64,000 nt of DNA, taken from assembly GCA_021845805.1 (NCBI GenBank), contig JAJZVD010000003.1:50705-114704 (forward strand), in the 5' to 3' direction. The position numbers were made by a program, and so were the translations under genes. The DNA comes from Pseudomonadota bacterium (GTDB taxonomy: Bacteria > Pseudomonadota > Alphaproteobacteria > Rhodobacterales > Rhodobacteraceae). Each line of letters opens with the position of its first letter. Position 1 is the stretch's first letter. Of the stretch, positions 24,163 to 37,177 are shown piece after piece. The notes beneath the pieces are model-generated. The model was not told where the DNA came from, made no database searches, and was given only the letters and a program-made list of their open reading frames with translations.

Positions 24163-24247
24163 TGGTGCCCAGAAGAGGACTCGAACCTCCACGCCTTGCG
24201 GCACTGGTACCTGAAACCAGCGCGTCTACCAATTCCGCCATCTGGGC
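24163..24247 (-). tRNA. tRNA-Leu (anticodon CAG)
   Basis: Reverse complement GCCCAGATGGCGGAATTGGTAGACGCGCTGGTTTCAGGTACCAGTGCCGCAAGGCGTGGAGGTTCGAGTCCTCTTCTGGGCACCA; 7-bp acceptor stem, loop TTCAGGT, long variable arm, encoded CCA. Confidence 0.96.
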
Positions 24248-25401: not shown

Positions 25402-25556
25402 GCGCGCGTCTTGGCACGGACCCGCGGGCCGACCCGCATGATCGGGGCGCTGCGGCGCCCCGCTTGCATTTCCGGCCCGGGCGGCATCGCGAATCAGCCC
25501 GGCGCCAGAGCCGGAACATGCAGAAAAACAGGGGATTTCGCGATATAAGTAATAAT

Positions 25557-25629
25557 TGCTTACCTATTATCTCGGAGAAAATCGCCTTTTTTCGCCCACG
25601 GCAGGCGGAAATGGGTATTTAGGTAAGCA
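25557..25629. promoter_or_regulatory. 10-bp perfect inverted repeat enclosing an 8-bp hairpin, in an AT-rich pocket upstream of gltD
   Basis: TGCTTACCTA (25557-25566) and TAGGTAAGCA (25620-25629); inner TTTTCGCC-CACGGCA-GGCGGAAA (25589-25611, one G-T pair). Confidence 0.5.
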
Positions 25630-25701
25630 TAGCTGACTTTTCATCCGATCCCCCCTGTCCTATGAAGGCCGCCGAACGAAATCCCGAAGGGAGGCGCCGC
25701 C

Positions 25702-27135
25702 ATGGCCAAGGAACGCATGCTCCAATTCGTCACCCTGGCGAAGGAAATGCCCGAGAAGCGCCCCGCGGACCTGCGCGCCAAGGATTTCCACGAGATTTAC
25801 CGCGAATTTGCCGCGACCAAGGCGGCCGAACAGGCCGGGCGTTGCAGCCAGTGCGGCGTGCCCTTCTGCCAGAGCCACTGCCCGCTGCACAACAACATCC
25901 CCGACTGGCTGCGCCTGACCGCGATGGGGCGGTTGCAGGAAGCCTACGAGGTCAGCCAGGCCACCAACACCTTCCCCGAGATTTGCGGCCGCATCTGCCC
26001 GCAGGACCGCCTGTGCGAGGGCAACTGTGTCATCGAACAGTCCGGCCACGGCACGGTGACCATCGGTTCGGTCGAAAAGTACCTGACCGATCTTGCCTGG
26101 CAGGAGGGCTGGGTGAAGCCGATCCGCCCGGTGGAAGAGCGGGCGGAAAGCGTGGGCATCATCGGCGCGGGGCCGGCCGGGCTTGCGGCGGCGGATGTGC
26201 TGCGCCGCAAGGGCGTGCAGGTGACGGTCTATGACCGCTACGACCGGGCGGGCGGGCTGCTGACCTACGGCATCCCCGGCTTCAAGCTGGAAAAGCCGGT
26301 GGTGATGCAGCGGATCGACCAGCTCGAGGCGGCGGGCGTGCAGTTCGTGATGAATTGCAACGTGGGTGTGGATCTCAGCTTCGACGCGATCCGCGGCCAG
26401 CATGACGCGGTGCTGATCGCGACCGGGGTCTACAAGGCGCGCGACATCAAGGCGCCGGGCGTCGGTGCGGGCGGGATCGTGAAGGCGCTCGACTATCTGA
26501 CCGCCTCGAACCGGCAGAGCTTCGGCGACGAGGTGCCTGCCTTCGAGTCGGGCGAGCTGAACGCCGCGGGCAAGCGGGTGGTGGTGATCGGCGGCGGCGA
26601 TACCGCGATGGACTGCGTGCGCACGGCGATCCGGCAGGGCGCCACCAGCGTGAAGTGCCTTTATCGCCGCGACCGCGCCAACATGCCCGGCAGCCAGCGC
26701 GAGGTGCAGAACGCCGAGGAAGAGGGCGTGGAATTCGTCTGGCTTTCGGCGCCGAAAGGCTTCACCGGCAGCCCGGTCGATGGCGTGATGGTGCAGCGGA
26801 TGCGGCTGGGCGAGCCCGACAGCAGCGGGCGCCAGGTGCCCGAGATCATCGAGGGCGCGGATTATGTGGAACCGGTCGAACTGGTCATCATGGCGCTGGG
26901 GTTCGAGCCCGAAGACCTGCCCGCCGACTGGCAGGCCCCTGCCCTGACGGTCACCCGCTGGGGCACGGTCAAGGCCGATTTCCGCAGCCACGCGACCAGC
27001 CTGCCTGGCGTCTTCGCGGCAGGCGACATCGTGCGCGGGGCAAGCCTTGTGGTCTGGGCGATCCGCGACGGACGCGAGGCGGCGGATGCGATCATGGACT
27101 ATCTGGCGCAGCCCGCCGTGGTGGCGGCGGAATAG
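25702..27135 (+). CDS. gltD: Glutamate synthase (NADPH) small subunit
   Basis: CSQCGVPFCQSHCPLHNNIPDWL; CGRICPQDRLCEGNCV; GAGPAGLAAADVLRRKGVQVTVYDRYDRAGGLLTYGIP. Confidence 0.96.
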   Translation: MAKERMLQFVTLAKEMPEKRPADLRAKDFHEIYREFAATKAAEQAGRCSQCGVPFCQSHCPLHNNIPDWLRLTAMGRLQEAYEVSQATNTFPEICGRICPQDRLCEGNCVIEQSGHGTVTIGSVEKYLTDLAWQEGWVKPIRPVEERAESVGIIGAGPAGLAAADVLRRKGVQVTVYDRYDRAGGLLTYGIPGFKLEKPVVMQRIDQLEAAGVQFVMNCNVGVDLSFDAIRGQHDAVLIATGVYKARDIKAPGVGAGGIVKALDYLTASNRQSFGDEVPAFESGELNAAGKRVVVIGGGDTAMDCVRTAIRQGATSVKCLYRRDRANMPGSQREVQNAEEEGVEFVWLSAPKGFTGSPVDGVMVQRMRLGEPDSSGRQVPEIIEGADYVEPVELVIMALGFEPEDLPADWQAPALTVTRWGTVKADFRSHATSLPGVFAAGDIVRGASLVVWAIRDGREAADAIMDYLAQPAVVAAE

Positions 27136-28140: not shown

Positions 28141-31100
28141 ATGACGACGTATGACGAAGCCTGGGTTGCCGCCGAGGAAGCCAAGCGCGCCTACATGAAC
28201 GACCACTCGCTTTACCGGACCGAGGACGAACACTCGTCATGCGGGGTCGGGCTTGTCGTCGCCATTTCCGGCAAGCCCAGCCGCAAGGTGGTGCAGAACG
28301 GCATCGACGCGCTGAAGGCCGTATGGCACCGCGGCGCGGTCGATGCCGACGGCAAGACGGGCGATGGCGCGGGCATCCATGTGCAGATCCCGGTGCCGTT
28401 CTTCTACGACCAGATCCGCCGCACCGGACACGAGCCCGACATGGGCAAGCTGATCGCCGTGGGCCAGATCTTCCTGCCGCGCACCGATTTCGGCGCGCAG
28501 GAACGCTGCCGCACCATCGTCGAGACCGAAGTGCTGCGGATGGGCCATTACATCTACGGCTGGCGCCACGTTCCGGTGAACACCGAGGTGCTGGGCGAGA
28601 AGGCAAACGCCACCCGGCCCGAGATCGAGCAGATCCTGATCCGCAATGACAAGGGCGTGGATGAAGAGACCTTCGAACGCGAACTTTACATCATCCGCCG
28701 CCGGATCGAGAAGGCGGCGATCGCCAGCCAGATCAACGGGCTCTATCTGTGTTCGCTGTCCTGCCGGTCGATCATCTACAAGGGGATGATGTTGGCCGAA
28801 CAGGTCGCGGTGTTCTATCCCGACCTGATGGACGAACGCTTCGAAAGCGCGTTCTGCATCTACCACCAGCGCTACAGCACCAACACCTTCCCCCAGTGGT
28901 CGCTGGCCCAGCCGTTCCGCATGCTGGCCCACAACGGCGAGATCAACACGCTGAAGGGCAACGTGAACTGGATGCGGAGCCACGAGATCCGCATGGCCTC
29001 GAGCACGTTCGGAGAGATGGCCGAGGACATCAAGCCGATCATCCCGGCGGGCACGTCGGATTCGGGCGCGCTGGATGCGGTGTTCGAGGTGATGGTGCGC
29101 GCCGGCCGCTCGGCCCCGATGGCCAAGACGATGCTGGTGCCCGAAGCCTGGTCGAAGACCACGACCGACATGCCGAAGGCCTGGGCGGACATGTACGCCT
29201 ATTGCAACGCGGTGATGGAACCCTGGGACGGCCCCGCGGCGCTGGCGATGACCGACGGCCGCTGGGTCTGCGGCGGGCTTGACCGCAACGGGTTGCGCCC
29301 GATGCGCTATGTGGTGACGGGCGACGGCATGCTGATCGCCGGGTCCGAGGCCGGAATGGTGCCGGTGGACGAAAGCACGATCCGCGAGAAGGGCGCGCTG
29401 GGGCCGGGGCAGATGATCGCCGTCGATATGCGCGACGGCAAGCTGTACCACGACCGCGCGATGAAGGACCGCCTGGCCGCGGCGCAGCCCTATGCCGAAT
29501 GGATCGAGAAGGTCGTGGACCTGAACGCGCTCTTGCGCGACGTGCCCGAAGCGCCGATGTTCGATGGCGCCGACCTGCGCCGCCGCCAGATCGCGGCCGG
29601 CTATTCGCTGGAAGACCTGGAACAGGTTCTGGCGCCGATGGCCGAGGACGGCAAGGAAATGGTGGCCAGCATGGGCGACGACACGCCCGCCGCGGTGCTG
29701 TCGAACCAGTACCGCCCGCTGAGCCACTTCTTCCGGCAGAACTTCAGCCAGGTGACGAACCCGCCGATCGACTCGTTGCGCGAAAGCCGGGTGATGAGCC
29801 TGAAGACCCGCTTCGGCAACCTGAAGAACGTGCTGGATGAAGACAGCAGCCAGACCGAGATCCTGGTGCTGGAAAGCCCGTTCATCGCCAACGCGGAATT
29901 CGAGGTGATGTCGCGCCAGTTCGGCGGCAACGTGGCCTTCATCGACTGCACCTTCCCGGTGGGGGGCGAGCCCGACGCGCTGCGGCTGGGGCTGGAACGC
30001 ATCCGCGCCGAGGCCGAGGATGCCGTGCGCTCGGGCGCCGGTCATCTGGTGCTGACGGATGAACATCAGGGGCCGTCCAAGGTGCCGATGCCGATGATCC
30101 TGGCCACCTCGGCCGTGCATTCCTGGCTGACGCGCAAGGGGCTGCGGACCTTCACCAGCGTCAATGTGCGTTCGGCCGAATGCATCGATCCGCATTACTT
30201 CGCGGTGCTGATCGGCTGCGGCGCCACCACGGTGAACGCCTATCTGGCCGAAGACAGCATCGCCGACCGCATTCGCCGCGGCCTGCTGGACGGCACGCTG
30301 GAAGACGGGATGCGCCGCTACCGCGCGGCCATCGACGCGGGCCTTCTGAAGATCATGTCGAAGATGGGGATCTCGGTCATCTCGTCCTATCGCGGCGGTC
30401 TGAATTTCGAGGCGGTGGGGCTGTCGCGCGCGATGGTGGCCGAATACTTCCCCGGAATGCACAGCCGCATTTCCGGCATCGGCCTACACGGCATCCAGAT
30501 GAAGCTGGAGGAGATCCACGCCAGCGCCTGGAAGGGCGGCAGCGACGTGCTGCCCATCGGCGGCTTCTACAAGGCCCGCCGCTCGGGCGAGAAGCACGCC
30601 TGGGAAGCGCAGACCATGCACATGCTGCAGGCGGCCTGCGACCGGGCCAGCTATGACCTGTGGCAGCAGTATTCGGCCGCCATGCGGGCCAATCCGCCGA
30701 TCCACCTGCGCGACCTCTTGGACATCAAGCCGCTGGGCAAGCCGGTGCCGATCGAAGAGGTGGAAAGCATCACCTCGATCCGCAAGCGGTTCGTGACGCC
30801 GGGGATGAGCCTTGGCGCCCTGGGGCCCGAGGCGCACAAGACGCTGAACATCGCGATGAACCGGATTGGTGCGAAGTCGGATTCGGGCGAGGGCGGCGAA
30901 GATCCGGCGCATTTCACGCCCGAGCCGAATGGCGACAACCCCTCGGCCAAGATCAAGCAGGTGGCCAGCGGTCGCTTCGGCGTGACGGCGGAATATCTCA
31001 ACGCCTGCGAAGAGCTGGAAATCAAGGTGGCCCAGGGCGCCAAGCCCGGCGAAGGCGGCCAGTTGCCCGGCCTGAAGGTGACCAAGCTGATCGCACGGCT

Positions 31101-32679
31101 GCGGCATTCGACGCCGGGCGTCACGCTGATCAGCCCGCCACCGCACCACGACATCTACTCGATCGAGGATCTGGCGCAGCTCATCTATGACCTCAAGCAG
31201 ATCAACCCGCGCGCCAAGGTCACGGTGAAGTTGGTCTCGTCCTCGGGCGTGGGCACCATCGCGGCGGGTGTGGCCAAGGCCAAGGCCGACGTGATCCTGA
31301 TCTCGGGGCACAATGGCGGCACCGGGGCCAGCCCGGCCACCTCGATCAAATACGCGGGCCTGCCGTGGGAGATGGGCCTGACCGAGGCGCATCAGGTGCT
31401 GGCCATGAACAACCTGCGCGAGCGGATCACGCTGCGCACCGATGGCGGGCTGCGCACGGGCCGCGACATCATCATTGCCGCGATGATGGGGGCCGAGGAA
31501 TACGGCATCGGCACCGCGGCGCTGATCGCCATGGGCTGCATCATGGTCCGCCAGTGCCAGTCGAACACCTGCCCGGTGGGCGTCTGCACCCAGAACGAGG
31601 CGCTGCGGGCCAAGTTCACCGGTACCGCGGACAAGGTGGTGAACCTCATCACCTTCTACGCGCAGGAGGTGCGGGAAATCCTGGCCTCGATCGGCGCGCG
31701 GACGATGGATGACATCATCGGCCGGGCCGACCTGCTGACGCAGGTGTCGCGCGGCTCGGCGCATCTTGACGATCTGGACCTGAATCCGCTGCTGATTACC
31801 GTCGATGGCGCGCAGAAGATCCGCTACGACCGGTCGAAGCCCCGCAACGCGGTGCCCGACACGCTGGATGCCGAAATCATCAAGGACGGCCACCGCTTCT
31901 TCGAGGATGGCGAGAAGATGCAGCTGTCCTACGCGGTCCGCAACACGCTGCGCACCATAGGCACGCGGGCCTCCAGCCATATCGTCAAGCGGTTCGGAAT
32001 GAACAACAGCCTGCAGCCCGACCACCTGACGGTGAAGCTGACCGGGTCCTGCGGACAGTCGCTGGGCGCCTTTGCGGTGAACGGCCTGAAGCTTGAGGTT
32101 CAGGGCGACGCCAACGACTATGTCGGCAAGGGCCTGTCGGGCGGGCTGATCGTGGTGCGGCCGCAGATGTCCTCGCCGCTGGAGGCAAGCCGGAACACGA
32201 TCATTGGCAACACGGTGCTTTATGGCGCCACCGCCGGGCACCTCTTTGCCGCGGGCCGGGCGGGCGAGCGGTTCGCGGTGCGCAACTCGGGCGCCAAGGT
32301 GGTGATCGAGGGCTGCGGATCGAACGGCTGCGAATACATGACCGGCGGGGTGGCGGTGATCCTGGGCAGCATCGGCGCCAACTTCGGCGCCGGGATGACC
32401 GGGGGCATGGCCTACCTCTATGACCCCGACGGCGTGGCCGAGGATTTCATCAACGGCGAGACCCTGGTGACCTGCGCCGTCAGCCACCCGCATTGGGAGG
32501 CCGAGCTGAAGGCGCTGGTGGAACGCCACGCGCGGGAAACCGGCAGCCGCAAGGCCGCGGCGATCCTGGCCGACTGGGCGGCAGAAAGGGCCAATTTCCT
32601 GCAGGTCTGCCCGAAAGAGATGCTGATCCACCTGCCCTACCCGCTGAGCGAAGGGGCCGAGGCGGTGCCGGCCGAATAG
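28141..32679 (+). CDS. gltB: Glutamate synthase (NADPH) large subunit
   Basis: CGVGLVVAISG GATase N-terminus; YSTNTFPQWSLAQPFRMLAHNGEINTLKGN; FMN/Fe-S region CIMVRQCQSNTCPVGVCTQ; ATG 28141. Confidence 0.97.
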   Translation: MTTYDEAWVAAEEAKRAYMNDHSLYRTEDEHSSCGVGLVVAISGKPSRKVVQNGIDALKAVWHRGAVDADGKTGDGAGIHVQIPVPFFYDQIRRTGHEPDMGKLIAVGQIFLPRTDFGAQERCRTIVETEVLRMGHYIYGWRHVPVNTEVLGEKANATRPEIEQILIRNDKGVDEETFERELYIIRRRIEKAAIASQINGLYLCSLSCRSIIYKGMMLAEQVAVFYPDLMDERFESAFCIYHQRYSTNTFPQWSLAQPFRMLAHNGEINTLKGNVNWMRSHEIRMASSTFGEMAEDIKPIIPAGTSDSGALDAVFEVMVRAGRSAPMAKTMLVPEAWSKTTTDMPKAWADMYAYCNAVMEPWDGPAALAMTDGRWVCGGLDRNGLRPMRYVVTGDGMLIAGSEAGMVPVDESTIREKGALGPGQMIAVDMRDGKLYHDRAMKDRLAAAQPYAEWIEKVVDLNALLRDVPEAPMFDGADLRRRQIAAGYSLEDLEQVLAPMAEDGKEMVASMGDDTPAAVLSNQYRPLSHFFRQNFSQVTNPPIDSLRESRVMSLKTRFGNLKNVLDEDSSQTEILVLESPFIANAEFEVMSRQFGGNVAFIDCTFPVGGEPDALRLGLERIRAEAEDAVRSGAGHLVLTDEHQGPSKVPMPMILATSAVHSWLTRKGLRTFTSVNVRSAECIDPHYFAVLIGCGATTVNAYLAEDSIADRIRRGLLDGTLEDGMRRYRAAIDAGLLKIMSKMGISVISSYRGGLNFEAVGLSRAMVAEYFPGMHSRISGIGLHGIQMKLEEIHASAWKGGSDVLPIGGFYKARRSGEKHAWEAQTMHMLQAACDRASYDLWQQYSAAMRANPPIHLRDLLDIKPLGKPVPIEEVESITSIRKRFVTPGMSLGALGPEAHKTLNIAMNRIGAKSDSGEGGEDPAHFTPEPNGDNPSAKIKQVASGRFGVTAEYLNACEELEIKVAQGAKPGEGGQLPGLKVTKLIARLRHSTPGVTLISPPPHHDIYSIEDLAQLIYDLKQINPRAKVTVKLVSSSGVGTIAAGVAKAKADVILISGHNGGTGASPATSIKYAGLPWEMGLTEAHQVLAMNNLRERITLRTDGGLRTGRDIIIAAMMGAEEYGIGTAALIAMGCIMVRQCQSNTCPVGVCTQNEALRAKFTGTADKVVNLITFYAQEVREILASIGARTMDDIIGRADLLTQVSRGSAHLDDLDLNPLLITVDGAQKIRYDRSKPRNAVPDTLDAEIIKDGHRFFEDGEKMQLSYAVRNTLRTIGTRASSHIVKRFGMNNSLQPDHLTVKLTGSCGQSLGAFAVNGLKLEVQGDANDYVGKGLSGGLIVVRPQMSSPLEASRNTIIGNTVLYGATAGHLFAAGRAGERFAVRNSGAKVVIEGCGSNGCEYMTGGVAVILGSIGANFGAGMTGGMAYLYDPDGVAEDFINGETLVTCAVSHPHWEAELKALVERHARETGSRKAAAILADWAAERANFLQVCPKEMLIHLPYPLSEGAEAVPAE

Positions 32680-36172: not shown

Positions 36173-37042
36173 TCAGGCCCGCACCAGCGCCTGATAGCGG
36201 TCGATCACATGGCGGGCCAGGGCGCCCACCTCGAACCGCCAGGGGCCGATTTCGGCGACCGGGGTCACCTCTGCGGCGGTGCCGGTCAGCCAGCATTGCT
36301 GGAAGCTTTCCAGTTCGTGCGGGCCGATGTGGCGCTCGTGCACCGCGACGCCCTCGGCGCGCAGCAGATCGATGACGGTCTGCCGGGTGATCCCCGCCAG
36401 GACGCAATCGGGCAAGGGCGTGTGAACCGCGCCATCCTTCACGAAGAAGATGTTGGCGCTTGTCGCCTCGGCCACATGGCCGCGATAGTCGAACATCATG
36501 GCATCCGCGCAGCCCTTCGCCTCGGCGGCGTGCTTTGACATGGTGCAGATCATGTAGAGCCCCGAGGCCTTGGCCGCTGACGGGATGGTTTCCGGGCTGG
36601 GGCGTTTCCATTTCGCGATGTCGAGCCGGGCGCCCTTCAGCCGGGCATCGCCGTAATAGGGCGCCCATGACCACCCCGCGATGGCCAGCCGCACCGGATT
36701 GCGGCGGGCCGATACGCCCATGTCCAGCCCCGACGCGCGCCAGGCGATGGCGCGGACATAGGCATCGCTCCAGCCATTCGCCTGCAGCAGCGCGGCCTTG
36801 GCGGCCTCGATCTGGTCCAGCGTCCAGGGCAGCGGCATGTCGATCAACTCGCCCGACCGGATCAGGCGGGCACTGTGCGCGCGGCTCTGGAAGATCCGGC
36901 TGCCGTAGCTGCGCTCGCCCTCGAACACCGCCGAGGCATAGTGCAGCGCATGGGTCAGCACATGCACCGTGGCCTGCCGCCAGGGCACCAATGCGCCGTC
37001 CATCCAGATCCAGCCATCGCGATCGTCAAATGCGTCAGACAT
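36173..37042 (-). CDS. ilvE: Branched-chain amino acid aminotransferase
   Basis: WMDGALVPWRQATVHVLTHALHYASAVFEGERSY; EATSANIFFVKDG; GITRQTVIDL; start at MSDAF (CAT 37040-37042). Confidence 0.93.
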   Translation of the reverse strand: MSDAFDDRDGWIWMDGALVPWRQATVHVLTHALHYASAVFEGERSYGSRIFQSRAHSARLIRSGELIDMPLPWTLDQIEAAKAALLQANGWSDAYVRAIAWRASGLDMGVSARRNPVRLAIAGWSWAPYYGDARLKGARLDIAKWKRPSPETIPSAAKASGLYMICTMSKHAAEAKGCADAMMFDYRGHVAEATSANIFFVKDGAVHTPLPDCVLAGITRQTVIDLLRAEGVAVHERHIGPHELESFQQCWLTGTAAEVTPVAEIGPWRFEVGALARHVIDRYQALVRA

Positions 37043-37148
37043 GCCTTCCTCCGTCCGAGCCCGCAGGTCGGTTTTCAAAAGTTGCGCACTAAAGGTCCGT
37101 TTTGGACATTTTATTGCGTGAAATCTGCGGACGGGTAACAATTGATTC

Positions 37149-37177
37149 TTGGAAAGTCAACAAGGCTGACATAAAAT
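37149..37177 (+). promoter_or_regulatory. Candidate sigma-70 promoter for petPR
   Basis: TTGGAA (37149-37154) - 17 nt - TAAAAT (37172-37177), 40 nt upstream of ATG 37217. Confidence 0.5.

Follow-up and report, generated by a model that had tools for sequence, protein, structure and literature searches.

The window analysed here, a stretch of 64,000 nucleotides of Rhodobacteraceae DNA, carries the gene for the small subunit of glutamate synthase (gltD; 25702–27135, plus strand), followed by a gene of 256 residues and then by the gene for the large subunit (gltB; 28141–32679, plus strand). Glutamate synthase is a main entry point of ammonium nitrogen. The first of these genes had been named gltD in a first-pass annotation made from the letters alone, and its product indeed scores above the TIGR01318 cut-off (538 bits versus 483); that of gltB contains GATase_2, Glu_syn_central, Glu_synthase and GXGXG domains. 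Upstream of gltD lies an AT-rich island (GC 0.42–0.46 at 25500–25650, against roughly 0.60–0.76 around it) that holds a perfect 10-bp inverted repeat (25557–25629), with the left arm TGCTTACCTA at 25557–25566, the right arm TAGGTAAGCA at 25620–25629 and a hairpin within the 53-nt spacer. Both the island and the repeat had been reported by the first-pass annotation, the latter with its sequence, coordinates and spacer exact. The window has no other perfect inverted repeat of 10 bp or more with A/T-rich arms and a spacer of up to 100 (1 observed, 0.03 expected from block shuffles), and this one thus exceeds chance expectation; when the repeat region itself was shuffled, any such inverted repeat arose in 45 of 2,000 shuffles. 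A terminator-like hairpin of eight G–C pairs (25443–25462, plus strand; 0.5 expected by chance) lies 3′ of the upstream epimerase-family gene.

Each arm of the repeat proved to be one half of a local palindrome of its own, which the first-pass annotation had missed. The left arm is the right half of an upstream site, U (an imperfect palindrome, TAAGTAATAATTGCTTACCTA, 25546–25566), and the right arm is the left half of a downstream site, D (TAGGTAAGCATAGCTGACTTT, 25620–25640). U and D are 21-bp palindromes of the type TAGGTCAG-N5-CTGACCTA, and direct reading reveals in both the imperfect dyad with T-N11-A geometry that characterizes LysR-type operators (T-N11-A at 25550–25562 and 25624–25636, respectively). 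The palindrome score of U is 20.3, compared with 6.5 at the 99th percentile of shuffled sequences, and D, with zero mismatches to the pattern, is the best match in the whole genome. The first-pass proposal of paired operators controlling glutamate synthase therefore survives with its anatomy corrected, as two complete palindromes 74 bp apart and not as a single repeat with mutually pairing arms; that the arms complement each other follows from their sharing a single half-site consensus. Across gltD upstream regions we found no covariation of the proposed closing stem beyond this shared half-site. Observed arms paired at 7.84 of 10 positions and arms whose partners had been swapped between genomes at 7.72 of 10 (152 of 1,000 swaps equalled or exceeded the observed value), and no significant association was seen at the variable core position (Fisher p 0.26). 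Since swapped partners pair equally well, these data lend no support to an RNA stem.

We compared gltD upstream regions at 80 loci of Rhodobacteraceae and related bacteria (81 with the window). D is conserved in 79 of these 81 promoters as the family palindrome TAGGTCAG-N5-CTGAC followed by TTTTaTT, mostly 65–100 bp 5′ of the gltD start codon. At 73–75 bp upstream of D, about 70 of the 81 have either U or a related palindrome (GGTCCG-N3-CGGACC); the latter occupies the U position, at the same 73–75 bp, in 29 genomes, which with few exceptions are not those bearing U. Among the 46 sequences with a significant upstream palindrome (best score above the shuffled 95th percentile), the best one was 74–75 bp from D in 40. 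A third, weaker site occurs at 41 bp in a few close relatives. Taking 10.5 bp per turn, U and D stand close to seven whole turns apart, on the same face of the helix, and the 41-bp spacing comes close to four. U and D are almost certainly conserved DNA operators of one recognition type, and their conservation shows two such predicted operators in fixed phase, with D beside the putative core promoter.

That core promoter is placed at 25638–25666 on the plus strand, after D and not in a loop between the arms as the first-pass annotation had pictured it. It comprises a T-rich −35 region from 25638, which D abuts, and the −10-like hexamer TATGAA (25661–25666), a probable −10 element given the TA conserved at columns 41–42 after D in the promoter alignment (0.87 and 0.92). 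A scan of the gltD promoter for sigma-70 consensus elements found no consensus pair, so the −35 region is taken as weak, which fits an activator-dependent promoter. From the conserved TA, we infer that transcription starts near 25673, downstream of the repeat; the first-pass annotation had regarded a start downstream of 25629 as incompatible with its RNA reading. With the −10-like TA downstream of it, the repeat is expected to lie outside the transcript made from the gltD promoter. The centre of D lies near −43 relative to the predicted start. This is a usual position for an activator.

Allowing at most one mismatch, a search of the whole genome places the motif upstream of gltD and at a single further location, its best match apart from gltD: the intergenic region that separates a gene of LysR type (P0001) from a divergently oriented gene (P0002). 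The start of P0002 reads as indolepyruvate ferredoxin oxidoreductase and its product has POR and TPP domains; on these grounds and on general knowledge we take it to be ior. A site is present in the lysR–ior intergenic region of 31 of 35 family genomes and, in our reading, in many of them it sits between the TTTGTA-like and TATAAT-like hexamers of the ior promoter. As this is a usual place for a repressor site, the geometry favours repression of ior. Matches in the genome with two mismatches, at L149 and L150, fall inside long open frames or at their margins. Exact copies of GCTTACCTA were found at three places in the genome, the third of which (L152) was rejected, as it is not a palindrome of the U/D type.

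The gene beside this second site encodes a candidate regulator. When the genome was searched with Agrobacterium LsrB, P0001 ranked first (8.7e-72; next, 1.5e-35), and LsrB, with which it shares 41% identity, is its nearest solved relative. P0001 has the helix–turn–helix and substrate domains of LysR proteins and, as the best genome match to LsrB, can be read as the Rhodobacteraceae orthologue of LsrB/VtlR, known from Agrobacterium, Sinorhizobium and Brucella; the balance of the sequence evidence tips towards this protein as the regulator of U and D. Site D also fits the published VtlR box (GCAT-N3-TG-N3-T), although only 9 of 81 relatives' sites do so, the family consensus being a long palindrome. 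The reported context of lsrB is with trxB (PMC11975290), and orthologues outside the family follow trxB in most loci, whereas P0001 adjoins ior in this genome. P0001 also differs in lacking the redox-active effector-domain cysteines of LsrB (it has valine at the cysteine of the LsrB motif DCAIR, and only C191 is common among family orthologues of P0001), so its signal probably differs from that of LsrB. Although LsrB has recently been described as confined to Rhizobiales (PMC11975290), all 56 of the near-complete family genomes that were sampled have an orthologue of the regulator, as do 32 of 56 near-complete genomes across the class. In a tree rooted on a paralogue outgroup with very long branches, LsrB clusters with an orthologue linked to trxB (53% identity), a weakly supported and weakly resolved placement.

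To look beyond Rhodobacteraceae, we used 28 alphaproteobacterial genomes with gltD, each from another family. A site scoring above the 99th percentile of shuffles was found upstream of gltD in 22 of the 28; as a control, none of the 28 had one upstream of gltB. Sites also precede ior-type genes in 7 of 27 readable regions, all in genomes bearing the regulator, which in six of the seven lies by trxB and not by ior. At gltD, site and regulator co-occur: 18 of 20 genomes with the regulator have a site, compared with 4 of 8 without (p = 0.038). In four genomes (G118, G030, G092 and G140), a strong site at gltD is accompanied by no orthologue at E ≤ 1e-50, a threshold that a diverged orthologue could escape; G140 is, moreover, incomplete. 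The region before trxB–lysR outside the family mostly has no site, so the site beside lysR in the genome studied here may serve ior alone. These four genomes and the sites missing before trxB–lysR are the main evidence against a regulator of the P0001 type. No LysR gene was found near gltD in the other-family genomes. In a genome of another family (G019), a second gltB-type gene, which is distant (44% identity), likewise has a one-mismatch site several hundred bases upstream (L239, near 1678).

As a whole, these observations are best explained by a LysR-type protein, P0001, that would act on U and D to activate gltDB and would repress ior, an account to which we give a good though far from firm probability. 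The regulator would bind both U and D as dimers that meet by bending or looping the DNA over seven turns; that it activates gltDB from these sites in this way seems somewhat more probable than not, activation being favoured because D lies near −43 and the −35 region is poor. At ior, where the site lies within the promoter, the same protein would repress. Such logic might couple glutamate synthesis to the sparing of aromatic keto acids, and the effector could be, for example, 2-oxoglutarate or an arylpyruvate; both are conjectures. The arrangement resembles the recognition and activation sites of known LysR-type operator pairs in its two T-N11-A dyads and in the proximal site beside −35. It differs in that the proximal site is the better conserved and in that the centres are 74 bp apart rather than the usual few turns, a spacing longer than is usual for a LysR tetramer, which counts against a LysR protein. 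Control of glutamate synthase by a LysR protein would be of the same kind as that by GltC, the LysR-type activator of gltAB in Bacillus; the two GltC models recognize P0001 as no more than a general LysR protein (78 and 59 bits versus cut-offs of 350 and 300). For LsrB/VtlR, the reported targets are small RNA and oxidative-stress genes, unlike the gltDB and ior targets proposed here. NtrC control of gltBD in some alphaproteobacteria has been described in a comparative study (PMC5343134).

The same operators might instead be read by another protein, a global amino-acid regulator such as one of the Lrp/AsnC type, binding helically phased U and D and wrapping the promoter. Such a protein would suit the spacings fixed at whole turns, both at gltD and upstream of an aminotransferase gene (62–63 bp, see below), the relation of the targets to amino acids and the presence of strong sites where a clear LysR orthologue is lacking. 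By general knowledge, too, Lrp of Escherichia coli acts on gltBDF from a number of helically phased sites 5′ of glutamate synthase. The T-N11-A geometry and the lysR–ior site, however, point to a LysR protein, and the E. coli Lrp consensus differs from the gltD sites, with another half-site spacing (also general knowledge), leaving this reading unlikely. We are as doubtful of a second alternative, in which the LysR-type operators serve to repress gltDB, the bound protein acting at D and a loop to U adding to the repression: D abutting the −35 region and an ior copy placed as for a repressor speak for it, whereas the poor −35 suggests that an activator is needed and, by general knowledge, a centre near −43 is a usual one for activators. 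The other first-pass suggestion, a structured leader RNA or riboswitch transcribed ahead of gltD (stem 25557–25566/25620–25629 plus the internal hairpin), deserves next to no credence and was rejected: folding does reproduce the closing stem and hairpin, somewhat better than in shuffles (z = −2.19), but the Rfam scan that the annotation had called for returned no family and nothing useful at curated or relaxed thresholds, the helices do not covary, neither the spacer nor its hairpin is conserved across the compared genomes (in our reading, the hairpin is partly kept in one same-genus genome and not in the others), each arm is accounted for by its own palindrome, and the likely −10 lies downstream. 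A tRNA gene (24166–24247, minus strand) is the only Rfam match in the window at curated thresholds.

Returning to the P0001 account, if the assignment is true, a class-wide operator of glutamate synthase and a candidate for its regulator would be open to direct testing, and a regulator best known from associations with plants and animals would acquire a general role in metabolism. Literature searches turned up no account of the U/D operator, nor of glutamate synthase being controlled by LsrB/VtlR, most subscription papers being outside their coverage; the operator may thus be without earlier description in the literature searched. More tentatively, and with the chances rather against it, one ancient regulon spanning Alphaproteobacteria could link gltDB to aromatic keto-acid breakdown (ior) under an LsrB/VtlR-type regulator, acting in Rhodobacteraceae through fixed-phase paired operators, with the redox and small RNA role in Rhizobiales as a later specialization of a metabolic regulator.

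The palindrome GGTCCG-N3-CGGACC that stands in place of U in some relatives (for example, L029, L033, L045 and L058) recurs as a motif 5′ of a class IV aminotransferase gene in the window (36176–37042, minus strand). Upstream of this gene, at 37090–37173, are two palindromes at a fixed distance. The first, TATGTCAGCCTTGTTGACTTT (37153–37173), is present in 30 of 30 family genomes, and the second, GTCCG-N3-CGGAC (37090–37110), lies 62–63 bp from it in 28 of the 30, a layout that mirrors the gltD promoter. The divergent MarR-type neighbour of the aminotransferase gene may bind the first palindrome.
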